From assembly GCA_027382625.1 (NCBI GenBank), contig JAJKFJ010022041.1, forward strand, positions 1-64,000: a DNA stretch of 64,000 nt, in the 5' to 3' direction. The translations under genes and the position numbers were made by a program. The DNA comes from Tetmemena sp. SeJ-2015 (lineage: Eukaryota > Ciliophora > Spirotrichea > Sporadotrichida > Oxytrichidae). The notes under the pieces were generated by a model that ran no database searches, had not been told where the DNA came from, and saw only the letters and a program-made list of their open reading frames with translations. Shown one piece after another: positions 52,401 through 64,000 of the stretch; positions within the stretch are counted from its first letter, which is position 1; each line of letters opens with the position of its first letter.

Positions 52401-55400
52401 TCCAAATCTCAAGCAACACACCAGCCTCAGTCATTAAGAATGTCCTCGTTCAAAATATGTCAACTAACTTTTTGGAGGATTCTTTTTAATTCCAATTTCA
52501 TTATATAATAAATTACTCCTCAATTAATTTAATAAATTATTTGACAGGATTATTCTCAATATTTGCATTTAAAAAATATAATGATAATGCATCCCTTTTT
52601 CCAGTTAATAAATGTGAATTCTCAAAGTGCAGGTCTTGCTGGATCTTTGGCTTTCTAGAATTTAACAGTGAGGAATAACACCTTTGATGCTGAGTTATCT
52701 CTAATTCAATTTTCAGGATTCCTGCTTGACAGTGCCAATTTAGATGTTTCTATCGAATCATCCTCTTTCATCCATAACAATTTCACTCTCTATGGAGACC
52801 TAATCTCACTTTAAATTTTAATTATTTCGCATTTATGTTTAACAGAACATGCTCCTGCCATTTAGAATAAAGGACACTAGATTTTACAATAACTATGGAG
52901 CTATGTTCGACTTGACATCTGGAAATATTGCTCTAGTTGACAGCCCAACTTAACTCATGGTTTCTAACTGCACATTCACAACTTTAAAATATAAAAATTG
53001 TAAAACATTTAATTAATAAAGCTCTTAATTATCATAATGAAGCTAATGAAAAGAGAAAATTCTTAAAACTATTTTATTTCTTTTCCTCTCAAATTAACTT
53101 CTTTTTCTTTTTGGAAATTTAGGTTTATATTCATTAAGAACACTCCGTTCTCAAAAGCTCTTATTGTGGTCAACGAAAATTATCATCAATATTGCAAGGA
53201 TCGTAATGCAATTTAAAATTAATTCATAATTTTATAACTGTCTTTCAAATTTAATAGCTAAAAGTTTAAATTTATGAATCTTAAACAAAAAATAAATTGA
53301 GAGGAGCTGTATTTAAGCTTCTATAAAAACTTAATTTCAAATTATATAGGCTCTCCAATTCTAATAAAAAGAATTATCTGTGTTTAAATTGAACTTTGCT
53401 AATTGAACATTACTTTAACATATTCAAATGACAGTAATCATATGTCATCTATAATTAGATTATCTCTTATTAAGTTCATATTTAAAACTGCAAATCATTC
53501 ATATACAATTCTTATTTCCTTGAGAATTACTCCACCTCAAGAGGTTCTGTGATCATGGCTGACTACCAGAACACTCAAATTACTTCGAAAACTGCACATT
53601 CATTAATAACTCAGCCACTACAGGTGGTGTGTTCTACACTTAGTTTGGAAGCATGATTGACTGCCTCAACTGCTCAGTTAGAAATAACTTTGGAATCAAG
53701 GGAGGAGTTGTCTACACAAGCAATGATGGATACATTCAGTTCAGAAAAAGTATCATCATAGACAATAAGTCCCTCTACTCTAGTATTCTGGTCACTCTTA
53801 GTAGCCCCACCTCATATACCCTTTTCTCAGACACATACATTTACAACAACTAACTAATAATCCTTAACATATATTGCGACATTGTTTTAACTTCTTGACT
53901 TGAGTCAGTTTATTGATAGCACCACTAACACTATAAAGGTTCTAGATAAATCGCTTGCCTATTTGGCTAGTGATTACTTAGCTTACCTCTTAGCAAGTTA
54001 AGTTTCTATCTAAAACTCAGTGTAACTCGGTTTGATTTATGCTCTGAACAGTATCAACTCCAATCTCAAGTTCATTAATTTAGCAATTGAAAATCAGCAG
54101 AATATCCTCTCCTCTTTTAAAATGATTGAGTCCTAGTTTATTTTTACTCTTTTGAAGCGAATATACTTGGAAGCAATTTTACAATAAAGAATACCCAAGT
54201 CTCCAAGACTTATAGTACAGGATCGAATGTAATTGCGTAAATAGGATAAACGAAATACAAGACTGGACTATCATCCTCCCCTATATTTATATTTCACATA
54301 AATAATAATGGATTCCAAGTCGACTGTTGACCAGCTCTCCAAATGCATTAATTCGAAGAGCGAGCTTTACGAAGCTGCTCTGCGGAATCATTACTTTCTC
54401 CCTTCCTTCAAATCTAAGTTAGTGACCGAGGAATACATTATCAATGTAATTCATGGAGTTACTTGGTGTCCCTTCTTCAAGGATATTAGGCTGCTGCCTT
54501 GCCCTCGCCCACCCACGATGGACGTTCTTGTCAAGAAACTCCTATTAGTCGCCGAGAAATAAGGCAAGACTCTAGGGATCGATAAGTCTCATTATCCAAA
54601 TCAGAGATGGGCTTTGGCACTCTTGTCGACATTCTCGCCAAAGGATGAGATATTTGCGAAGGACTACATAGGCCCAAAGAGAAATTCAAAGGCTACAATG
54701 TATCGAACTGTTGATCTTGCTCCGTCGTTCCTCGATGGATTGCCTGCAACAAGCGCTAAAGGTAAAGCTCTAAGGCTGGGCTTCATTAATAGAGGTAAGG
54801 CCACCTTGAAGTACATGCGATTGAAGGAGGCAAGGAACAAGATTGAGAAGTAGATTGAGAAGGAGAAGCAGCAAATGGAAGAGCGAAAGCAGAGCAAGGC
54901 AAAAGTCAGTGAGAGACCAGCGACACAGCAGCTTGGTGGACAGCCACCATCATCAACGTAACTGTTCAGCTTGGGTACAAAGTAGAGGACACCTACCAAG
55001 GGCAAAGGATAGGAGTGACGAGCTAATCTCAGACAGTGTGGCCGCGCAGTGAGGAAATCACAGTTCGGTAGTGCGAGCGGGCTACCGCCTTAACTTAGTC
55101 TGTGCTGGGGAGGGGCGGGATTGTCTGGTTAGACTAGCTCTGTAATCGTACGACGTCGCCACTCCTGCTTCAGTATGGCCCAGAGCCGCTCGATGGGATT
55201 GAGCGCGCAGCTGTAGGGAGGCAGATACTCGATGGTACAGTAGTCAGGAATGGACTCGCGCGCCTTGGGGCTCTTGTGGATGGAGAGGTTGTCCATGAGG
55301 ATGATGCTACCAGGAAGAAGGCGCGGCGTAAGCTCGTGCAGGAATCGTTGGAAGTGCTGGAGGTTGTTGCTCCCAGTGAGGACCTTGAAGTGAAGGAGGC

Positions 55401-58400
55401 CGCCCATCTCGCTGATAGCACCAATCACGGTTATAGACTTGCCTCGCGTGCTGGGAATTTGAACTCGCATGCGATCCTTGAGCCAGCACCGCCTTGGCGA
55501 CTACCATGCGTTGAATGTAGATTCGTCCAGGTATACAACATGTCTCCCCTCGCAGATCCACCTTGCCAGACGCTTGGAGAACTCCTGTTACCTGCGCTGG
55601 GCGTCCTGCTCCTTGTCTTCATTGCGACGGTATGAGTAGCCTGCGGCACGATACTTGACTCCGTTACGCAGATAAATCTTTCTTAGCCCAAACATCGAGA
55701 GCAAAGGAATCTCATAATGGAAGTGGAGGTAGTGGCATCGCTGCTCAAGATTCAGGTGTGCAGTTTCTCTCAGTGCCTTGATAGAAGTAATGCGTCGCTC
55801 GGTGTCGCAAGTTAGTAAGCGCTTCCTCCCCGAATTGCCTTTGTTAACCACTACCTTGAAGCCGTTTTTACGCCAGCGTAGCACAATCATATTCACCGCT
55901 CCCTCTCACAGGCCGAGAATTCTTGCCACCTCTGAATAGGTTAGCCTTGGCTGAGTGTCAGAGTGCAAAGATCCGAAACGAAGAAATACTGCGGAGAGCT
56001 GCTGATCGTAACTGATTGACATTCGGGTCCTCAGTTTGAAGGGTCGCACCTTTTTAATAGCTTTGGTCTTGATTAGAGGGAGCTTGCTCTCCAAATATGG
56101 GATCATGTTCATGTCTGGTATGTGTACTCGAGTTCCAAGGCCTGCTAGGAGGGAGGATTGAGCAGGATCAAATGCGCTGAACTTTCTCTTCCTGGATGGT
56201 TTCGTAGACTTGGACTCCATTCAGAGTCAGAGATTGATTAATAATTATAAATGCAACCCACCTAATTACAATATATTCTGTACTATTAGAACTTGCTTGA
56301 GTTAACTTCAACCACCTTCAACATCTCAGGTCTCAACCTAGTTACAAGAGATTTTTATTAATCACTTTCAATCGTAATTTATAACATATCTTGTGATCCT
56401 ACCACAGCAGCTTAGGATAATTATTTGATGAGTGCTCTGCTCAACTCTGACTTCAACATAGATCAACTATTTATTTCGAACATCACCAATCCAGTTGCCT
56501 TCCTCCTTAGTTCTTTCTTGAATTTTAGATAAGTATATTTTATTTGATTGAATCTCACAAACTCTAAGATTACGAAAGCTGCTATAACTAGTCAGCTTTA
56601 TTAGCCTATCTCTTTGACAGATAGTACTGCAAACTTCTCAAATGTTACAATTTCAAACATTCAAGTGAGTTCAGATTCCATGGTTCACTTGAGTTTCAGT
56701 AACATAAATGCTACTGGACTCACTATGGATACAATTAATCAGACATATATTATCGCCTCAGATTCAAAATGCTTGCGTTTAATTTTCATATTTATTATAT
56801 TCAACTCTATATTTCAACAGTTCTAATTTCACTAGAGACTCTTCAGGTGATCCCTACGATTTCTCAGACCCAAATTTGAGTATTGATTTGAGTACTATAA
56901 ACTATGTCCGATCTTGTATAGTAGCAGACACTAGTACCATTATTGTGCAGAATATCTCCATCAACAACTTCTTAACCACTGATAATGGAGGAGCCTTGTC
57001 TACCACCAATTGCGCAAAAGTAGCTGTAAACGGATCAACTTTCTACAAAAATCAAGCCATGATAGTATTTTAATGATGGGAGGAGGACTTTACCTTTATT
57101 GCGATACTGATCAGTAATGCCAGTATTCAGTTAGTTCGAGCACATTTAAATAGAACTATGGTGTTACTTAAGGAGGAGCAATTAATATTATGGATTAATT
57201 TGTATCCTATACTAATTATCAATAATTGAATGTACTACAACTATTATGCTCCAACCTTAGATCTTCCTTCAATAATTTCGTAGACAACGTAGCTCCTTAT
57301 GGAGAGAATATATCTGCATACGCTTATCAGCTAGTAATCACAAGTACTAATAACATCTCAAACTAAGTTAGTGGACAGACCATCATAAACCCGATAACAG
57401 TTGAAGTGAGAGACTACTATAACAACATTATCAATATTGATAACTCAACGTAAGCTTAAAGAGTCTTGCTAATTTTTCTATAGAAAAATTGAGATGCAAA
57501 GTTTGAACATATCAACCACTCAAATTTAGGGAGCAAGTACTCTAACTGTCAACTAAGGCTAGGCAGTATTTGACTAAGTTACTCTTCTTTCTAATCCAGG
57601 CAGAACTGGAGAGTACTTGAAAATAGTTTTACAGTAGTATGACAGCTCTCTAATTAGCACTGCTTATGGAATTAAAAACCCCAGCTCTCTCAATAGTAAG
57701 CAATTTCAAATTTAGAGTTATCTTTTTAGACTTGACTATCTAAATCAACTTCAGAGACTGCCTCGTTGGTGAAGCACTCTAGCAATAAAAGTGCGTTTAG
57801 TGCCCAATTGGGAAGTTCCAGTTGGAGTTGAATGCAACTACATGCTTGAACTGCCCTACAAATGCAGTGTGTCCAGGAGGCAGCATTATAAGTGTTGATG
57901 GGGGTTACTGGAGAGCTAACTATTAGAGTAGCTTAATCCATGAATGTCTATTTTCACCTGCGTGTCTAGGAGGCACTTCTTGGACTGATGGGGAAGGAAA
58001 GCTTTGGCCCACTGCCTGCGAGGGAGGCTATGGAGGAAATCTATGCCATGCATGTGTCAGATAAAGTTAAATTCCAAATAAAAATGGAATTTTTTATTAA
58101 TTTAAAGTTTTAAAGCTTAAAACCCCCAAAAAAATTTAAATTAATAATTTAAATTTTTATTTTAAAGCTTTTTAAAAAATTAATTATTTATTTCATTACT
58201 TTTTTATTTATTTAAATCATTATAAAATGTCTTTAAGACTTGTAGGAATAGGTCTTTGTTTAATTCTAGCTCTGAGTCTCCTAATTTTGTAAGTACCCTC
58301 TTCATAAAAATAGATAAGATACTGCAAAATAATGCTATGATCAGATAAATTTATCAAATTCTTTAGCCTAAATTTGAAGAGAAAAGGAACAACTATCTCG

Positions 58401-61400
58401 CAGTGCTGACTAGAATGTTCACAAACTATCTACAAATTATGTCTTACGCTGCAAGTTTCAATCTTGGTTGGCCTGAGTCACTCAAGAATCTCTATGATTC
58501 AATTTCTATCATCGCTTAGTCTACAGACTCGGCATTTTCACTAGACTGTTTCTTCGATAATTCTCAATCTTTAGTTTAAAAAGATATTACTAATGTTTAA
58601 TTCAGGCGTAAATGACATGACCAACAAGACTCCTACCTTCTTCTTGAAAGCACTTATGTTGCTAATTTTGCCTCTTTTTGCTCTAGTGTTGATCTTCTCG
58701 TTCTGGGGAGTAGCCTATCTGCTTAAGAAAATAGACAAAGAAGCATTTGCAAGGAACTCTATCGTCTCTATTATTGTGGTCATTTTCTTGGCACATACCA
58801 CTTTGACCTATAATATTATAAGTTAAAATAAATGTTTGTGATCCTCTAATGCCTTTTCCATGATGAATTGCTATGAAATCGAGCCAAGCGAATAGTGGCT
58901 GCTTGCTGATCTTCAAATTCAGTGTTGGAACAGTACTCATACGAGATGGTTCTTCATAGTTGGGCTCCCTATGTTGATTTTATGGGTCATTGGAATGCCA
59001 GTGCTAGCATTTTCAATTATGTTCTTCAACAGGTCCAAGCTAAATGATGAAAAGTTCTTCAGTAAGTACAGAATGCTCTACTAAGGATTAAAGAGGAAGC
59101 ATTTTTACTGGGAGATCGTTAACACGTTCAGAAAAATTGCCATCGTTTCCATCAACGTGTTCTTGTCTCTCTATCCTGACTATATCAAAGCTATCTATGC
59201 CATGCTTATATTTAACTAAGTTAAACATAGGTTTTAATATGCTGATGTTAGCAATTATTTTCAAGTTGTAGGAGATTTTGTAACCCTACGAAATTCCAGT
59301 CTTTAACTGGATCGAACAAAGAGAACAAATAGCCTCTATCGTTACATTTTATGCAGGCCTGTACTTTGTGAAAGCAGATGTTTCAGAGATCTTCAAGTAT
59401 GTTATCATTATAATAGTGTTCTTCGTAAATGCGTGGTTCCTTGTGCTTTGGTCTTTTGTGGCTATAAACACTTTCAAATGGAAGTGGTCCAAGAAAGTTG
59501 CTCGCATCCTTAAGAAGATCATTTGCAAAAGACTCAAGGAGGAGCATCTCAAGCATTTATCTTTTATTAATAAGTTATTAAGCCAGTTGACTAGGATGCA
59601 CTAGGAATGTCTGGAAATACCACTTTCAACACTAAAGCTGGCTCTATGAGCATGCCCAAGCTTGCAGAAGATGCATCGGAAGATGGTCAGAGTGAAAGTA
59701 AGTTAAAGAGAAAGCACACCTCTACAAAGTCTAAGATGAACTCTAAGCAAAAGGACTATTCCATTGGATATGAAGAGGGCCCTAATGACTAAGGAGATAT
59801 AGCTTTTATAGTCTTTAATGTTCTCCTATTTTAAGATAATGACAAATCGAATGTGCTTGATGAGACAGGCAATCCTTTGAAGTAAAAGGGAAAGAAGACA
59901 GTTAAGAACATGGATGATGACTTTAACTAAATTGAGGTTGTCAATGGCGATGACGAGCCTGATGGAGATTTTGTTAAAGAGAGGAGATCCAAGAAGTCTA
60001 AAGTCTCAGGCACTCACAAGAAAAAAACAGACAAGTCAAGCAGCAACGATGGAGGCAAGAATAATTAAACTCAGACCTCCAAAGAAACAGGACTCAGAGG
60101 ATCTATCATAGCTGATCCTTCAAAGGCAAATAAGCAAAAGTCTCATGAAGGCACTACTTCATCATTTAGTGAGTTCAGTGAGAAATTTAAAATATACACA
60201 AGGATAACTCGTAAATAAATAACGGCAAAGAACAGAAGATGAAAGACATTAATGACAGTTCTGATGGGGATTTTGATACAGTTGGAGCTTCTTAGTTCTA
60301 AAAGACAGGATCAGGAGGTTCAAATCATTTATTATAGTAGAAATATTTTTGAATATAGTCGATTTAGATGGAAGAGATGCCCCTTCAAAGTCAAATATTA
60401 GTGCTTCGAAGTCCTCTAAAGAGAAGAAGGCAGTCAAAGAAGTTAAAGAGTTCTCTATCAATGATGAGGATACATTTTTATAAGTTAAGAATTTTAAAAT
60501 GAGGATGACAGTGGAATGAGACTTTCAGATACTGACAAGAGTCCTTATTAAAATTAAAAGCAAAAACGAAATGACTACGAGTAAAATGCAGACTTAGCAG
60601 AGCCTTCAATAGATAAATCTAAGAAGAAAAAGAAGGCCAAGAAAACCAAAAAGAAGAAGACTAAGCAAACTGCCAAAGCATAAGATTAATTTATCCTCTT
60701 TAGTTAAAATTTTACAAAGATGAATCTGATGACAGCAATGATAATTATGATGAAAAGCAGAAGTCAAAGCAAACAAGGAATCTTGAGAATACTCATAGTT
60801 TCAATGATACCAACGACAATTTGAATTTCTAGTCGACAACTCAAAACTTGAGAATCCCTTACTCGACAAGTATGCCAAAAGGATAAGAAGGAAAGCAATA
60901 ATCTTTGAAAGTGAAGTCTGAGAAGCAAAGACCTCCTGCTGGTAAAATTATTGGCAATGCTATGTCTTATGGATTCGGAGCAAACAGTGGATTCTCAGCC
61001 AATGGAGAGCCCCTCTCTTCATCAGATTTGTCAGTTGAGGAGAACAGAGTTTACACTATTAAAAAGAAGGCAACCGCACAGAGAAGCCAATCTCCGAGCG
61101 GCAATTTCAAGGAGTCCTCCACTTATCAACCACCTTCAACTGCCGGTCCGACTAAGCACAGAAACCAGGTTTAAGGAAAACCAGTAAAGGCCAAGAAAAA
61201 TAATTATGCCAATAGTGATGACTGAAACTTTATTGAAATTTTTTAAGCTTTCATTTGATGACAGTGAAGATGATAAAAACCAGAAGAACCGCCTTATAGT
61301 TCATGATCGAACGTAATTAGGATGACTACACATATAATCAATTTTCAATTCTTATTATTATTCATTTAAAGGGCTCTAATAAAACTAAGCCAAATGTGCG

Positions 61401-62096
61401 CTCTCATTGTTGCTCTGCCACTAGGTTCTAAGACTTCATTTAATCGAGCTTTTCACTTGTTTCGTTGATTTCAGGCTTACACACTTCTCTGTGCCATTTG
61501 AGAAAAAGGATTTGATGCTTGTCTTTGTCGTGATCTCTGAATTCTCTATTCTCGTTGCTCCATAGAATACATCTCATTTTCAATTTGTCTCTACAATTGA
61601 TTGAGGGCTTCACAAAGTCTCATGTAATTCGAAGTTGGCTTTCCTTTGTTTTCAGTGCTCTCTCGGTAGTTGGAATTTGACTACACCAAGGTAATTGCCA
61701 TCTTATCTGTAAGAGGCATAAATCTTGCCAAGAGTAGTTCTAGAGTTGGTGGTCTTGGACAAGGTAGAGGTCTCATCTCTTAGTTGAAGGGCGACAAAAT
61801 GATCCTTAAATCACACCAGGGATGTATTCTTGCAGCAAGCCAAGTAGTAATGCTTCCTCAACTCAGCTTCATAAAGATCAAGACTGGAATTTATGCTTTG
61901 GGTTCGCTGCTCAACTTTAGACTTGGAATCCAACATTTTTGGTATATAAATTTAAATAATAAGACGTTTTTCTTTATCAATTAAAACCACTTCCACAATT
62001 ACGTTCGATCATGAACTATTAGCGATGTTCTCTCTATGTCTGAGGACTAAAAGCCCTAGTCCTAGCAATAGAAGAGAAGATTATGAGTTTATAAAT
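49414..62096 (+). CDS. Giant receptor-like protein: signal peptide, Cys-rich head, beta-helix-type repeats, Cys-rich module, multi-pass membrane region, charged tail
   Basis: ATG 49414, after loss of a 9-bp IES, gives MNLKKTKLLLSILILCLGVG, a signal peptide, then a Cys-rich head (NCKTCVGTATACSSCNYEFQ). From about 50500 to 57480 the protein is a long series of short Asn/Ser/Thr-rich beta-strand repeats (FSNVTISNIQVSSDSM; NYLMSALLNSDFNIDQLFIS), typical of a right-handed beta-helix. A second Cys module (VGEALQQQKCVQCPIGKFQL, TTCLNCPTNAVCPGGSIISV) lies at about 57750-58070. Hydrophobic segments follow (58230-59500; MSLRLVGIGLCLILALSLLI, FLKALMLLILPLFALVLIFS), then a Lys/Glu/Ser-rich cytoplasmic tail ending SEDQKPQSQQQKRRL and TGA 62094-62096. 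Large proteins of this layout are common in ciliates; their ligands are unknown. It is interrupted by many IESs and by two related transposons (54213-56285, 61297-62018) whose removal restores the frame. Confidence 0.72.
49417..49425. other. 9-bp IES at the start of the receptor gene, pointer AAT
   Basis: AAT occurs at 49417-49419 and 49426-49428. Unexcised, ATG is followed by AAT TGA. Excised, the protein begins MNLKKTKLLLSILI, a good signal peptide. Confidence 0.6.
49597..49619. other. 23-bp IES, pointer GATT
   Basis: GATT occurs at 49597-49600 and 49620-49623. Removal joins LLEC to DSNCKTCVGTATACSSC, keeping the Cys spacing of the head module. Confidence 0.7.
54210..54212 (+). repeat. TTA target-site duplication, left side of TE1
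   Basis: TTA precedes the left inverted repeat of TE1 and is repeated at 56286-56288. Collapsing to one TTA gives Q V S K T Q N L L E in the host gene with no frame change, so the duplication can serve as an IES pointer. Confidence 0.8.
54213..54235 (+). repeat. TE1 left terminal inverted repeat
   Basis: TAGTACAGGATCGAATGTAA and following bases. It pairs with the right end (56263-56285) at TAGTACAG and TGTAATT with a few internal differences, and is closely similar to the TE2 termini. Confidence 0.8.
54308..55018 (+). CDS. TE1 accessory ORF (unknown function)
   Basis: Intact frame of 236 codons from ATG 54308 to TGA 55016-55018, reading TAA/TAG as Gln. It starts MDSKSTVDQLSKCINSKSEL, continues YEAALRNHYFLPSFKSKLVT and DIRLLPCPRPPTMDVLVKKL, and ends in a basic/Gln-rich helical tail (EARNKIEKQIEKEKQQMEER). 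A decayed homologue with the same start and LPCPRPPT motif is in TE2, so the ORF belongs to the family. No domain recognised. It points towards the transposase gene (convergent). It could be a DNA-binding or regulatory partner of the transposase, but nothing in the sequence proves that. Confidence 0.72.
55129..56220 (-). CDS. TE1 transposase, Tc1/mariner-IS630 superfamily (DDE), with one in-frame TGA
   Basis: Minus strand from ATG 56220 (MESKSTKPSRKRKFSAFDPA). A helix-turn-helix region (LTYSEVARILGL..EGAVNM) is followed by the catalytic core. First Asp in HVVYLDESTFNAW (about 55530). Second Asp in IILMDNLSIHK (about 55270). Glu in PYSCALNPIERLWAILKQEW (about 55170), with 33 residues counted between second Asp and Glu. 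TAA and TAG Gln codons lie inside the core. A TGA at 55906-55908 interrupts the helix-turn-helix, most simply a CGA to TGA change, so this copy may be inactive. No TGA is met soon after the Glu motif; the frame stays open towards the accessory ORF, so the exact C terminus is unclear. Like the accessory protein, it starts M-D/E-SKST. Confidence 0.8.
56263..56285 (-). repeat. TE1 right terminal inverted repeat
   Basis: Read on the minus strand from 56285: TAGTACAG, then TGTAATTAGG. TTA follows on the plus strand at 56286-56288. Confidence 0.78.
56286..56288 (+). repeat. TTA target-site duplication, right side of TE1
   Basis: Second copy of TTA. Host coding resumes immediately as TTAGAACTTGCTTGAG, in frame with the segment before 54210. 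Confidence 0.8.
58080..58205. other. AT-rich insert with homopolymer runs in the receptor gene
   Basis: Between the second Cys-rich module (CHACVRQS) and the first membrane segment (MSLRLVGIGL) lies a run of A/T homopolymers with a CCCCC tract. It is an IES, or poorly assembled sequence; no pointer identified. Confidence 0.45.
61216..61255. other. 40-bp IES near the 3' end of the receptor gene, pointer TGATGAC
   Basis: TGATGAC occurs at 61216-61222 and 61256-61262. Unexcised, translation stops at a TGA just after NSDD. Excised, it continues NSDDSEDDKNQKNRL. The 7-bp pointer makes chance unlikely. Confidence 0.8.
61297..62018. mobile_element. TE2: internally deleted non-autonomous relative of TE1
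   Basis: 722 bp, bounded by perfect 22-bp terminal inverted repeats beginning TAGTTCATGATCGAACGTAA (plus at 61297; minus from 62018) and flanked by TTA at 61294-61296 and 62019-62021. The ends differ from the TE1 left end at only a few positions. It holds a decayed copy of the accessory ORF, oriented as in TE1 relative to the matching end, and lacks the transposase. Removing TE2 plus one TTA joins KNQKNRL to SDVLSMSEDQKPQ, giving the receptor its C terminus and stop at 62094-62096. The precise frame restoration supports developmental excision through the TTA repeat. Confidence 0.82.
61471..61936 (-). pseudogene. TE2 accessory ORF relic
   Basis: Minus strand from ATG 61936: MLDSKSKVEQRTQSINSSLD and LYEAELRKHYYLACCKNTSL, then TGA. 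In another frame it continues MRPLPCPRPPTLELLLARFM, and QRQIENEMYSMEQREQRIQR to TGA 61471-61473. It aligns with the TE1 accessory ORF at the start, at HY.L, at LPCPRPPT and in the charged helical tail, with one frameshift and internal deletion. Confidence 0.72.
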
Positions 62097-62500
62097 TTTT
62101 CCTTCCATTTATTTCTCAATAAATAGAATAAATTATTAAAAAATAGTCTCTATTTCTTATTAAAAATTATTATTATTATAACAGAGATAGAGAATTAACT
62201 ATATAGCAAATATTATTTTAATAATTCTCTGATAAAATAAAATTAGAACTCTAATAGTTCATTTATATGGGAATTGAGAAGATTAAAAGAATAATACTCC
62301 AAGATGGCTGCCGATATTTTTATAGTTTAGGTTTCCATTCGCGGAGGTTCTGAAAATGTGATGTGGTAAACCTCCTATAGTGTGAGTAGTACGTAGTAGA
62401 TGATTAAACCGCATCACGATTTTAGAAGCCGTTCTCGATTATGATTAGAATAGAGTTGGAGTGGTCGCTGTCTAATAGCTATATTAAATATTAAAGCCAC
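62097..62500. other. AT-rich region grading into GC-richer sequence
   Basis: Follows the receptor stop. The first 180 bases are A/T-rich. From about 62280 the base composition shifts to more G+C. No gene recognised. Confidence 0.4.
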
Positions 62501-62629
62501 TATGCGGCTACCCGCAATCGCAAGCAGCCAGAGCCGGATTTGTGCGATGAGCCGGTATTCTGGGAACGGAAGCGCCCCAAGCAATCACGAGCAGCGGCCA
62601 TTTAAGGAGTGTTACATGTTGCTGGCGGA

Positions 62630-62998
62630 TCAGATAGCGGCGATCTGCGGTGGCTTTCCGCTCCCAGTTCGATCTTGCTCTGGATAAGGACATCCAGATT
62701 TATTGATTGATTCCAATGGTGGCCCGAACAGAGCAAGTTAGCCACGCTGTTGCTTCGCTTTCAAGTGCGGGGAATAGCTCGCAGAGCCGCCAGTGTCTGT
62801 ATATAGGTCTACTTGACATCGGACTCGCTTAGCTGTCCATCTCCCATAGCTCTGTAAAGCCTCCAGCGTCTCCAGCGCTTCCATTTTAGTTTTTTTATTT
62901 TCGGGGTTTCGTGGTCCCTTCGGCCATTCGGGTGCCCTAGTGTTGGGATGCTGGGCGAGTCTGCGATTTATGTCTTTAAATATCTGATTATAAGCCAT
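62630..62998 (-). CDS. Unrecognised ORF in the GC-richer 3' region
   Basis: Open from ATG 62998 to TGA 62630-62632 with the ciliate code (122 residues). It starts MAYNQIFKDINRRLAQHPNT and continues RAPEWPKGPRNPENKKTKME and ESINKSGCPYPEQDRTGSGK. An in-frame TGA immediately precedes the ATG. No domain recognised. In this base composition, with only one stop codon, an ORF of this length is not by itself strong evidence, so it is listed as a candidate germline-limited gene or transposon remnant. Confidence 0.3.
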
Positions 62999-63466
62999 TC
63001 ACTTCACGTGATGCTGACCTGAAACTATTGGGAAGATCGATATGATCCACCAAGGAGAGGTTTACTTACAGTCATAATGGATGGGCTTCTATAAGCTCAT
63101 TATGACAGATCCCACAATCGATGATAGAGTGTAGCGAGAGTGACTTAGATTGTCTTGATAGAACAAATTACCTTATGAGACTTCTCAGTGCTACAGGTGT
63201 GTAGAGATGCAAGCCTAGCCATGGGCTGTTAAGAAGGAGCTATTAGTGAGAAGGTTAGGGACTTGCAATGCTCGGGTAGGGAACCAAGATGGAGCGAGCT
63301 TGAGCGTATCAGGACTTGGATCGCGGCGACCGCTCTGTCGAGGGACTGCGCAGTTCCAAGCAACGAAGGCTTTCTCTTCCCACCTCTGTAATGCGACGTC
63401 GAATAGGTTCGTGATCCTGAGGCCCAAGCTAACTTATGTGTGTAAAGGAGTACATGCATCAGCACT

Positions 63467-63998
63467 TTGCCATTCGGGCTAGAGCTCCCTTTGAGCCTGG
63501 TTATGATACTCAACCGAGGCTCGCAATATTTCATCGTAGTGCATCTGAAGACGGAGTACGCAACTCTTTCACCAGGAACATTATGGGGCAGGGGTACAGG
63601 AAGTGAGATTGGAAAACGTCAGAAGCTCGGATCCGTTATTCTGGATTGAGTTATTCAGTTAGGAAGATTAGAGTCGGAAGTGCGCCACCTGTACGACCTG
63701 TAAGCTAGCACAGCCACGATCGTATTCGGGCGCTTGTAAGAAACAGGCGACGAGAGAGAGCGCTATACTAATAAACACAATCGCAGTATTATGACGTAGT
63801 TCAAGTAGCTACAGGACTTCATCAACCGTGGTGTTGTAAAGAGCAGACGTGTTGAAAAGGCTGAGTTTGGAATGGTTGATAAGGGGTAAGGATATTTCGG
63901 TTCTCGACTCTTTTGTGGTAGACGGCCCATTCGTGCGCTTCGTCACTTCCTCGTATTCTGTGAACGGTGCACCGTAGAACGGGGACGGCTATGACTGA
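63467..63998 (+). CDS. Possible germline-limited ORF, interrupted by one TGA
   Basis: The plus-strand frame from ATG 63467 (MPFGLELPLSLVMILNRGSQ) reaches a TGA at about 63647-63649 and then continues in frame (VIQLGRLESEVRHLYDLQAS, RYTNKHNRSIMTQFKQLQDF, VVKSRRVEKAEFGMVDKGQG) to a TGA near the window end. The second part is heptad-like and looks coding. It may be a decayed mobile-element gene. Not assigned to any family. Confidence 0.28.
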
Positions 63999-64000
63999 GA

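Follow-up and report, generated by a model that had tools for sequence, protein, structure and literature searches.

Animal transposons of the Tc1 type, such as Sleeping Beauty, carry a single gene and duplicate a TA dinucleotide on insertion. The closest described elements in hypotrich ciliates, the TBEs, are placed in the Tc1/mariner-IS630 superfamily and depart from TA with an ANT duplication, ANT being also the most frequent motif among the 3-bp pointers of Oxytricha (PMC12242761, excerpts). Here we describe TE1, a 2073-bp transposon at 54213..56285 of a 64-kb stretch of ciliate DNA (contig JAJKFJ010022041.1, positions 1 to 64,000; the window), which lies within a coding region between two copies of TTA. 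We consider it likely that TE1 is a fairly recent germline insertion of an element from a two-gene, TTA-targeting family, tolerated since developmental elimination would remove it together with one TTA.

TE1 begins with TAGTACAG at 54213 and ends with CTGTACTA at 56285, and TTA stands directly outside each end; the coordinates proposed in an earlier note on this DNA are thereby exact. The bounds follow from these end sequences and from a second copy with the same ends on contig C3208. The left TTA (54210..54212) is a target-site duplication and candidate pointer, and its partner lies at 56286..56288. The terminal inverted repeats span 54213..54240 on the plus strand (the second-gene side, ..AATTGCG) and 56258..56285 on the minus strand (the transposase side, ..AATTAGG). 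They were compared with the ends of 13 other elements and, from TAG onward, match each other at 20 of 28 bases, and an inverted-repeat finder gave arms of 26 nt, including the TTA, that are 81% complementary.

Genome-wide searches were made in the source assembly (146 Mb, 5213 contigs). The host gene stretch around TE1 (53484..57150, plus strand) was defined by alignment with three paralogs. A left-flank query (53500-54215) matched seven places: the window itself, three paralogs that reach the insertion point, and three contigs (C4465, C4094 and C1773) that match query bases 11-345 only and are thus uninformative on the site. In all three informative paralogs (C1645, C3982 and C3172, with 91, 88 and 87% identity) TE1 is absent and the overlap between its left and right flanks is exactly TTA. 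Each reads CCAAGACTTAGAACTT, the window sequence minus TE1 and minus one TTA. Because all three empty sites hold a single TTA, the target duplication claimed in the earlier note is 3 bp with exact ends. A TA duplication, usual in the superfamily and lacking here, was rejected, since the empty site would then retain extra bases, yet every paralog has one TTA. A direct repeat at both ends with one copy kept, as in internal eliminated sequences (IESs), is what the empty genomic sites display. These sites are genomic paralogs and not a macronuclear product. C1645 was considered as a macronuclear contig and rejected, as it has insertions of its own of about 430 and 618 bp, and all three paralogs look like germline copies themselves. 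Between the window and the three paralogs we counted 22 presence/absence rows (gaps of >25 bp on both sides excluded), and 18 of these, three of them TE1, have direct repeats of 2-11 nt at their bounds.

The same empty sites dispose of the suggestion that the end pattern and the TTA came together by chance around a fragment of a transposase. Taken alone, the ends and the duplication could be of chance origin: TE1's ends match at 14 of 18 bases, and in 20 block-shuffled windows pairs matching at 13 or more of 18 bases and sharing a 3-bp repeat turned up 0-2 times per window (mean 0.4). The three paralogs, however, break at exactly these bases, and the ends recur in a second copy. Together with the gene content and the genome-wide copies, the empty sites exclude chance pairing, and we regard it as refuted.

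The reading frame is a weaker witness. The earlier note held that the TTA join keeps the frame of the gene and took this as a sign of precise excision. The register is indeed kept, since CCAAGACTTAGAACTT in the three paralogs is the paralogs' own register, but this is expected of any 3-bp-duplication insertion. With TE1 deleted, a beta-helix-like frame stays open through 113 codons (27 upstream and 85 downstream of the join), and an alternative frame across the join is open longer, for 231 codons. The open frame is little proof, because the frame comes back whenever an insert that duplicated 3 bp is taken out and because TGA-only stops give long open frames by chance. In-frame joins at other copies of the family were discounted for the same reasons.

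TE1 contains two convergent genes, which were translated with NCBI code 6 (TAA and TAG as glutamine, TGA as stop). The transposase (55132..56220, minus strand), queried as 364 residues with its TGA read as serine, matched Pfam DDE_3 (PF13358) at E=4e-26, and Sleeping Beauty was the one solved relative found. Residues D232, D310 and E344 are the same in all 14 rows of the alignment. Spacing was measured in 13 of these rows, and the second aspartate precedes the glutamate by 33 residues in 12 (34 in the other). The DDE_3-type core and the short spacing before the last acidic residue (DD33E) place TE1 in the Tc1/mariner-IS630 superfamily, as the earlier note had it. The gene has a TGA at codon 105 and has lost the C-terminus SLRGH.V, the shared ending of the five relatives shown, so that as written the transposase is non-functional. 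The description of TE1 as almost complete needs correcting as to the transposase, which is not intact.

The second gene (ORF2, for open reading frame 2; 54308..55015, plus strand) is an open frame of 236 residues. It matched no Pfam family at E 0.01, nor did the further relatives tested, and a Pfam scan of both TE1 ORFs found no recombinase family in either. As to function, a weak match to a PHROG tape measure protein (E=0.006) and PDB matches only above E 0.7 were obtained, none of them convincing. A single-sequence query found no metagenomic protein relatives and an alignment query found 29; in viral contigs there were none for ORF2 and 21 loci for the transposase, with 23-58% identity over parts of the query. 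The ratio of nonsynonymous to synonymous substitution rates (dN/dS) was determined for six chosen pairs per gene, of which one per gene was saturated; in the other five it lay at 0.07-0.18 for ORF1 and at 0.05-0.17 for ORF2. Several dS values are above 1, and the ratios concerned are rough. The ratio is low also for TE1's own ORF2 against locus L040, and both family genes appear to be under purifying selection. The two genes start with almost identical bases (MDSKST and MESKST, window 54308 and 56220), giving an internal inverted repeat at the start codons that is present in L002 and L004 too.

TE1 belongs to a large two-gene family. At least 53 matches were found for its DNA (the best 40 of 180 candidates scored), at least 115 for its transposase (the best 112 of 1071) and at least 151 for ORF2 (the best 150 of 273). 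In 11 of 20 family loci examined, each of the two ends lies no more than 400 bp from the genes; the other nine gave no readable pair; C2993b and C2837 show one end each. The 11 loci were combined with TE1, L063 and TE2, a shorter relative described below, into a set of 14 elements with both ends readable, in which L051 and L053, having a right flank in common, do not count as independent. Every one of these elements has ends that start with TAG, 12 of the 14 are flanked by TTA/TTA or TAA/TAA, and none by ANT. Within TE1's own group (n=13) the ORF2-side end has AATTG near position 20 in every element and the transposase-side end has ATTAGG in 11, which makes the asymmetry of the ends consistent. 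The C3208 copy, with TE1's ends, is 95-99% identical to TE1 in two pieces, the intervening stretch being missing; it has other flanks, with TAA on both sides, and the same TGA at codon 105. Because it shares this TGA, a defective element has apparently moved, which suggests movement with help in trans, unless the TGA is read through.

A second clade, group B (L060-L063 and L065), has the same convergent pair, with 43-47% identity to the TE1 clade in the transposase and 48-52% in ORF2. Its transposase ends read TAA|TAG in L060, L062 and L065 and are changed to TA|AAG in L061; L063 has TTA at both ends, and 27 of its 28 end bases match. A transposase tree (L041 dropped) and an ORF2 tree returned the same two clades with 99-100% support, the root of the former being unsure, as group B and the metagenomic outgroup meet as long branches, on which the program gave a warning. 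ORF2 pieces of <120 residues (L057 and L059) were left out of both ORF2 trees, and seven near-copies or shorter pieces were removed from the second. The metagenomic transposase P0001 and ORF2 protein P0009 group with group B; the longest contig of each is 2221 bases, and the two are probably one two-gene element. Most other metagenomic ORF2 relatives form a separate cluster whose deep forks are modestly supported. When the metagenomic ORF2 relative P0013 was used as a query, it led back to the TAG/TTA families, with TE1 the best match at 47%. In group B, L088 as well as L062 (C1213), L060 (C3180) and L061 (C1904) have a large third ORF past ORF2, on the ORF2 strand and reversed with respect to the transposase. 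The open pieces of that ORF in L088 (575 and 218 residues) gave no Pfam match above the cut-off, to a zinc finger or kinase or otherwise; the inverted 57kD ORF reported for Paraurostyla TBEs may be compared (PMC4724952, excerpts).

Genuine TBE ends are also present in this genome. The 85-nt end published for Tetmemena sp. by Chen and Landweber (Table 3; PMC4724952, excerpts) occurs full length and at 100% identity in at least 40 places (the best 40 of 1107 candidates), a further match being partial, and its 31-nt inner piece in 1036 places with ≤1 mismatch (reversed control, 0). At least 17 of the 40 full-length ends are found 140 bases or less from where a contig starts and face outward, and C4A4 telomeric repeats stand at the start or end of some contigs. 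These exact matches support the spirotrich germline origin proposed in the earlier note, and the window DNA very probably represents the micronuclear genome of a hypotrich, Tetmemena sp., as assembled in PMC9797194. No TBE 42kD or 22kD protein was identified in the assembly, the listed TBE-end places being 100 of 1036. One C4A4 run lies nearly 4 kb inside a contig start (C2828:3805-4156). L065 (C333), which adjoins a Tetmemena TBE end, was tried as a TBE and rejected, as its own end reads TAA|TAG.. and the TBE end belongs to a neighboring short repeat. That repeat, a Tetmemena TBE end with a similar leader, recurs on C2979 at about 70,157 (L038) and at L066; one copy lies about 6 kb beyond the window and another beside a group B element. 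The repeat is apparently a TBE-derived mini-element.

It is conceivable that TE1 is itself a divergent TBE, one that keeps the 42kD and 22kD genes, has different ends and has lost the 57kD gene. The shared transposase superfamily, the roughly similar sizes and the convergent order common to TE1 and the 42kD/22kD pair speak for this (PMC4724952, excerpts), and the separate metagenomic ORF2 cluster (108-231 residues, up to 107 member sequences) could, as a guess, consist of TBE 22kD proteins. Since the published 22kD ORF is likewise reversed relative to the 42kD transposase (PMC4724952, excerpts), the convergent layout, which the earlier note had counted as un-TBE-like, does not separate the two. 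The termini and the duplication do separate them: published TBEs have telomeric ends and ANT (PMC4724952, Table 3, excerpts), whereas none of five telomere-like patterns tested occurs in the 64-kb window, in line with the claim that TE1 has no telomeric repeats. Nor are the TE1 ends worn telomeric ends, as 14 elements repeat the pattern of TAG..CTA beside TTA or TAA, with 27 of 28 matching bases in L063, and full-length telomeric TBE ends coexist with them in the same genome. With ANT, DD34E and three ORFs in the published descriptions of TBEs against TTA, DD33E and two ORFs here, we think a divergent TBE unlikely. TE1 rather appears, on those descriptions, to stand for an unnamed TBE-like lineage with TTA target sites. 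Its copies may already have been counted as TBE ORFs in PMC9797194, because the Tetmemena TBE search in that study used Oxytricha TBE proteins at 1e-7 (excerpts). In the literature searched, judged from listings and from excerpts of the papers cited here, we found no description of TTA-targeting non-telomeric elements in hypotrichs.

Near the 3' end of the same host gene lies TE2 (61297..62018), a 722-bp non-autonomous relative that is flanked by TTA at either end and retains no more of the genes than a broken ORF2 remnant. The first 22 nt of its two ends are identical to each other, though the ORF2 remnant within is in pieces. Its nearest relative among seven elements compared is C2133 (L050), 72-79% identical in three pieces. 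Contigs C3982 and C3172 lack an insert at the TE2 site, where they are too diverged for a base-by-base check; the arrangement of TE2 in the host gene mirrors that of TE1. Between the two elements, at window 57144-61059, six inserts of C3982/C3172 of 263 to about 1870 bp are absent from the window copy, with the repeats ATTTAAA, AT, AAT, TA, ATGA and TAT, so IES-like content differs strongly among the sister genes. Beyond TE2, window 62001-64000 has a G+C content of 0.41-0.48, higher than most of the window; it holds no transposon-gene match except the TE2 remnant that ends at 62018, and an ORF there (62262-63071, minus strand) has no Pfam match.

Several observations weigh against an insertion that is tolerated through precise elimination. 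The window copy of the gene has a 1-nt deletion near 53,577, missing from the three paralogs, which shifts the frame and may be either a sequencing error or real damage; the copy could accordingly be a pseudogene or a misassembly. The insertion appears young from its identity to the C3208 copy, and the intact-looking host gene hence tells us little. A terminal repeat is lacking in four of the 22 presence/absence rows; these include both TE2 rows, at which the divergence of the paralogs is too great. Two of the 14 elements (L051 and L057) are flanked by a mixed pair, TTA and TAA, and several of the dN/dS ratios, as noted, are rough. Finally, we infer both the excision of TE1 and the pointer role of its TTA from germline sequence alone.

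The deletion, together with the three further gene copies that lack TE1, also fits an ordinary insertion that broke one copy of a multi-copy gene while the others make the protein, TE1 being removed, if ever, by imprecise bulk elimination and not as an IES. Against it, TE2 sits likewise in this gene, towards its 3' end, and the flanks are still similar to the paralogs. Precise excision in hypotrichs has, moreover, a precedent: TBEs of Oxytricha fallax are reportedly excised precisely during macronuclear development, according to a 1989 publication known by its title. A precisely excised transposon is for the same reason not new. On balance we find an ordinary insertion rather improbable.

We return to the tolerated germline insertion, which can be put together as follows. 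An element of the family integrates at TTA and duplicates it, a step that the empty sites document. The insertion in a germline gene would be tolerated if developmental DNA elimination takes out the element and one TTA during formation of the macronucleus, with the duplicated TTA acting as a 3-bp pointer. Because the TE1 transposase is broken, the enzymes for its removal would have to be made elsewhere. Reading TE1 as an IES is thus plausible and fits precedent. The case for a transposon origin of IESs is built on elements with target duplications that correspond to pointers; TBEs supply ANT, and the TE1 family would supply TTA/TAA from a second, apparently unnamed source. As a somatic genome and rearrangement map have been published for Tetmemena, this origin can be tested junction by junction, and ORF2, which is conserved, of no known family and with metagenomic relatives, is a specific candidate for the partner of the transposase. 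More speculatively, and we hold this as a tentative idea that is doubtful as it stands, hypotrich germlines may harbor, alongside the TBEs, two-gene elements with TAG ends and TTA targets that form an older and broader lineage, with ORF2 an essential accessory of the transposase; the telomeric ends, ANT and third gene of TBEs would be later additions, and many TTA/TAA pointers of IESs would be footprints of this lineage and not of TBEs.

Among known systems TE1 is most like the TBEs, especially TBE3, as a germline Tc1/mariner element with a DDE transposase, a smaller convergent gene of unknown function, a 3-bp duplication and dN/dS well below 1 in both genes (PMC4724952, excerpts). It differs from them in its ends, which are non-telomeric and about 22-28 nt long as against telomeric ends of 78-138 nt, in the TTA/TAA of its family as against ANT, and in having two ORFs in 2073 bp as against three (42kD, reversed 22kD and a 57kD zinc finger/kinase) (PMC4724952, excerpts). 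TBEs and the Tec elements of Euplotes are both stated to be DD34E, unlike the DD33E of the TE1 family (PMC7325037, excerpts). Tec elements, also Tc1/mariner transposons of a ciliate germline, have ends of about 700 bp and a tyrosine recombinase gene, neither of which is seen in TE1 (PMC7325037 and PMC9797194, excerpts), and Euplotes reads UGA as cysteine (PMC9797194, excerpts), whereas the genome of TE1 reads TAA and TAG as glutamine. With animal Tc1 elements such as Sleeping Beauty, TE1 shares the DDE catalytic core and short inverted repeats and differs in its TTA and its second conserved gene. Like the IESs of hypotrichs, which have direct-repeat bounds as do most presence/absence segments of this host gene family, TE1 interrupts a coding region in the germline, is flanked by short direct repeats and is absent from sister gene copies; it differs from them in carrying transposon genes and in that its elimination is deduced.

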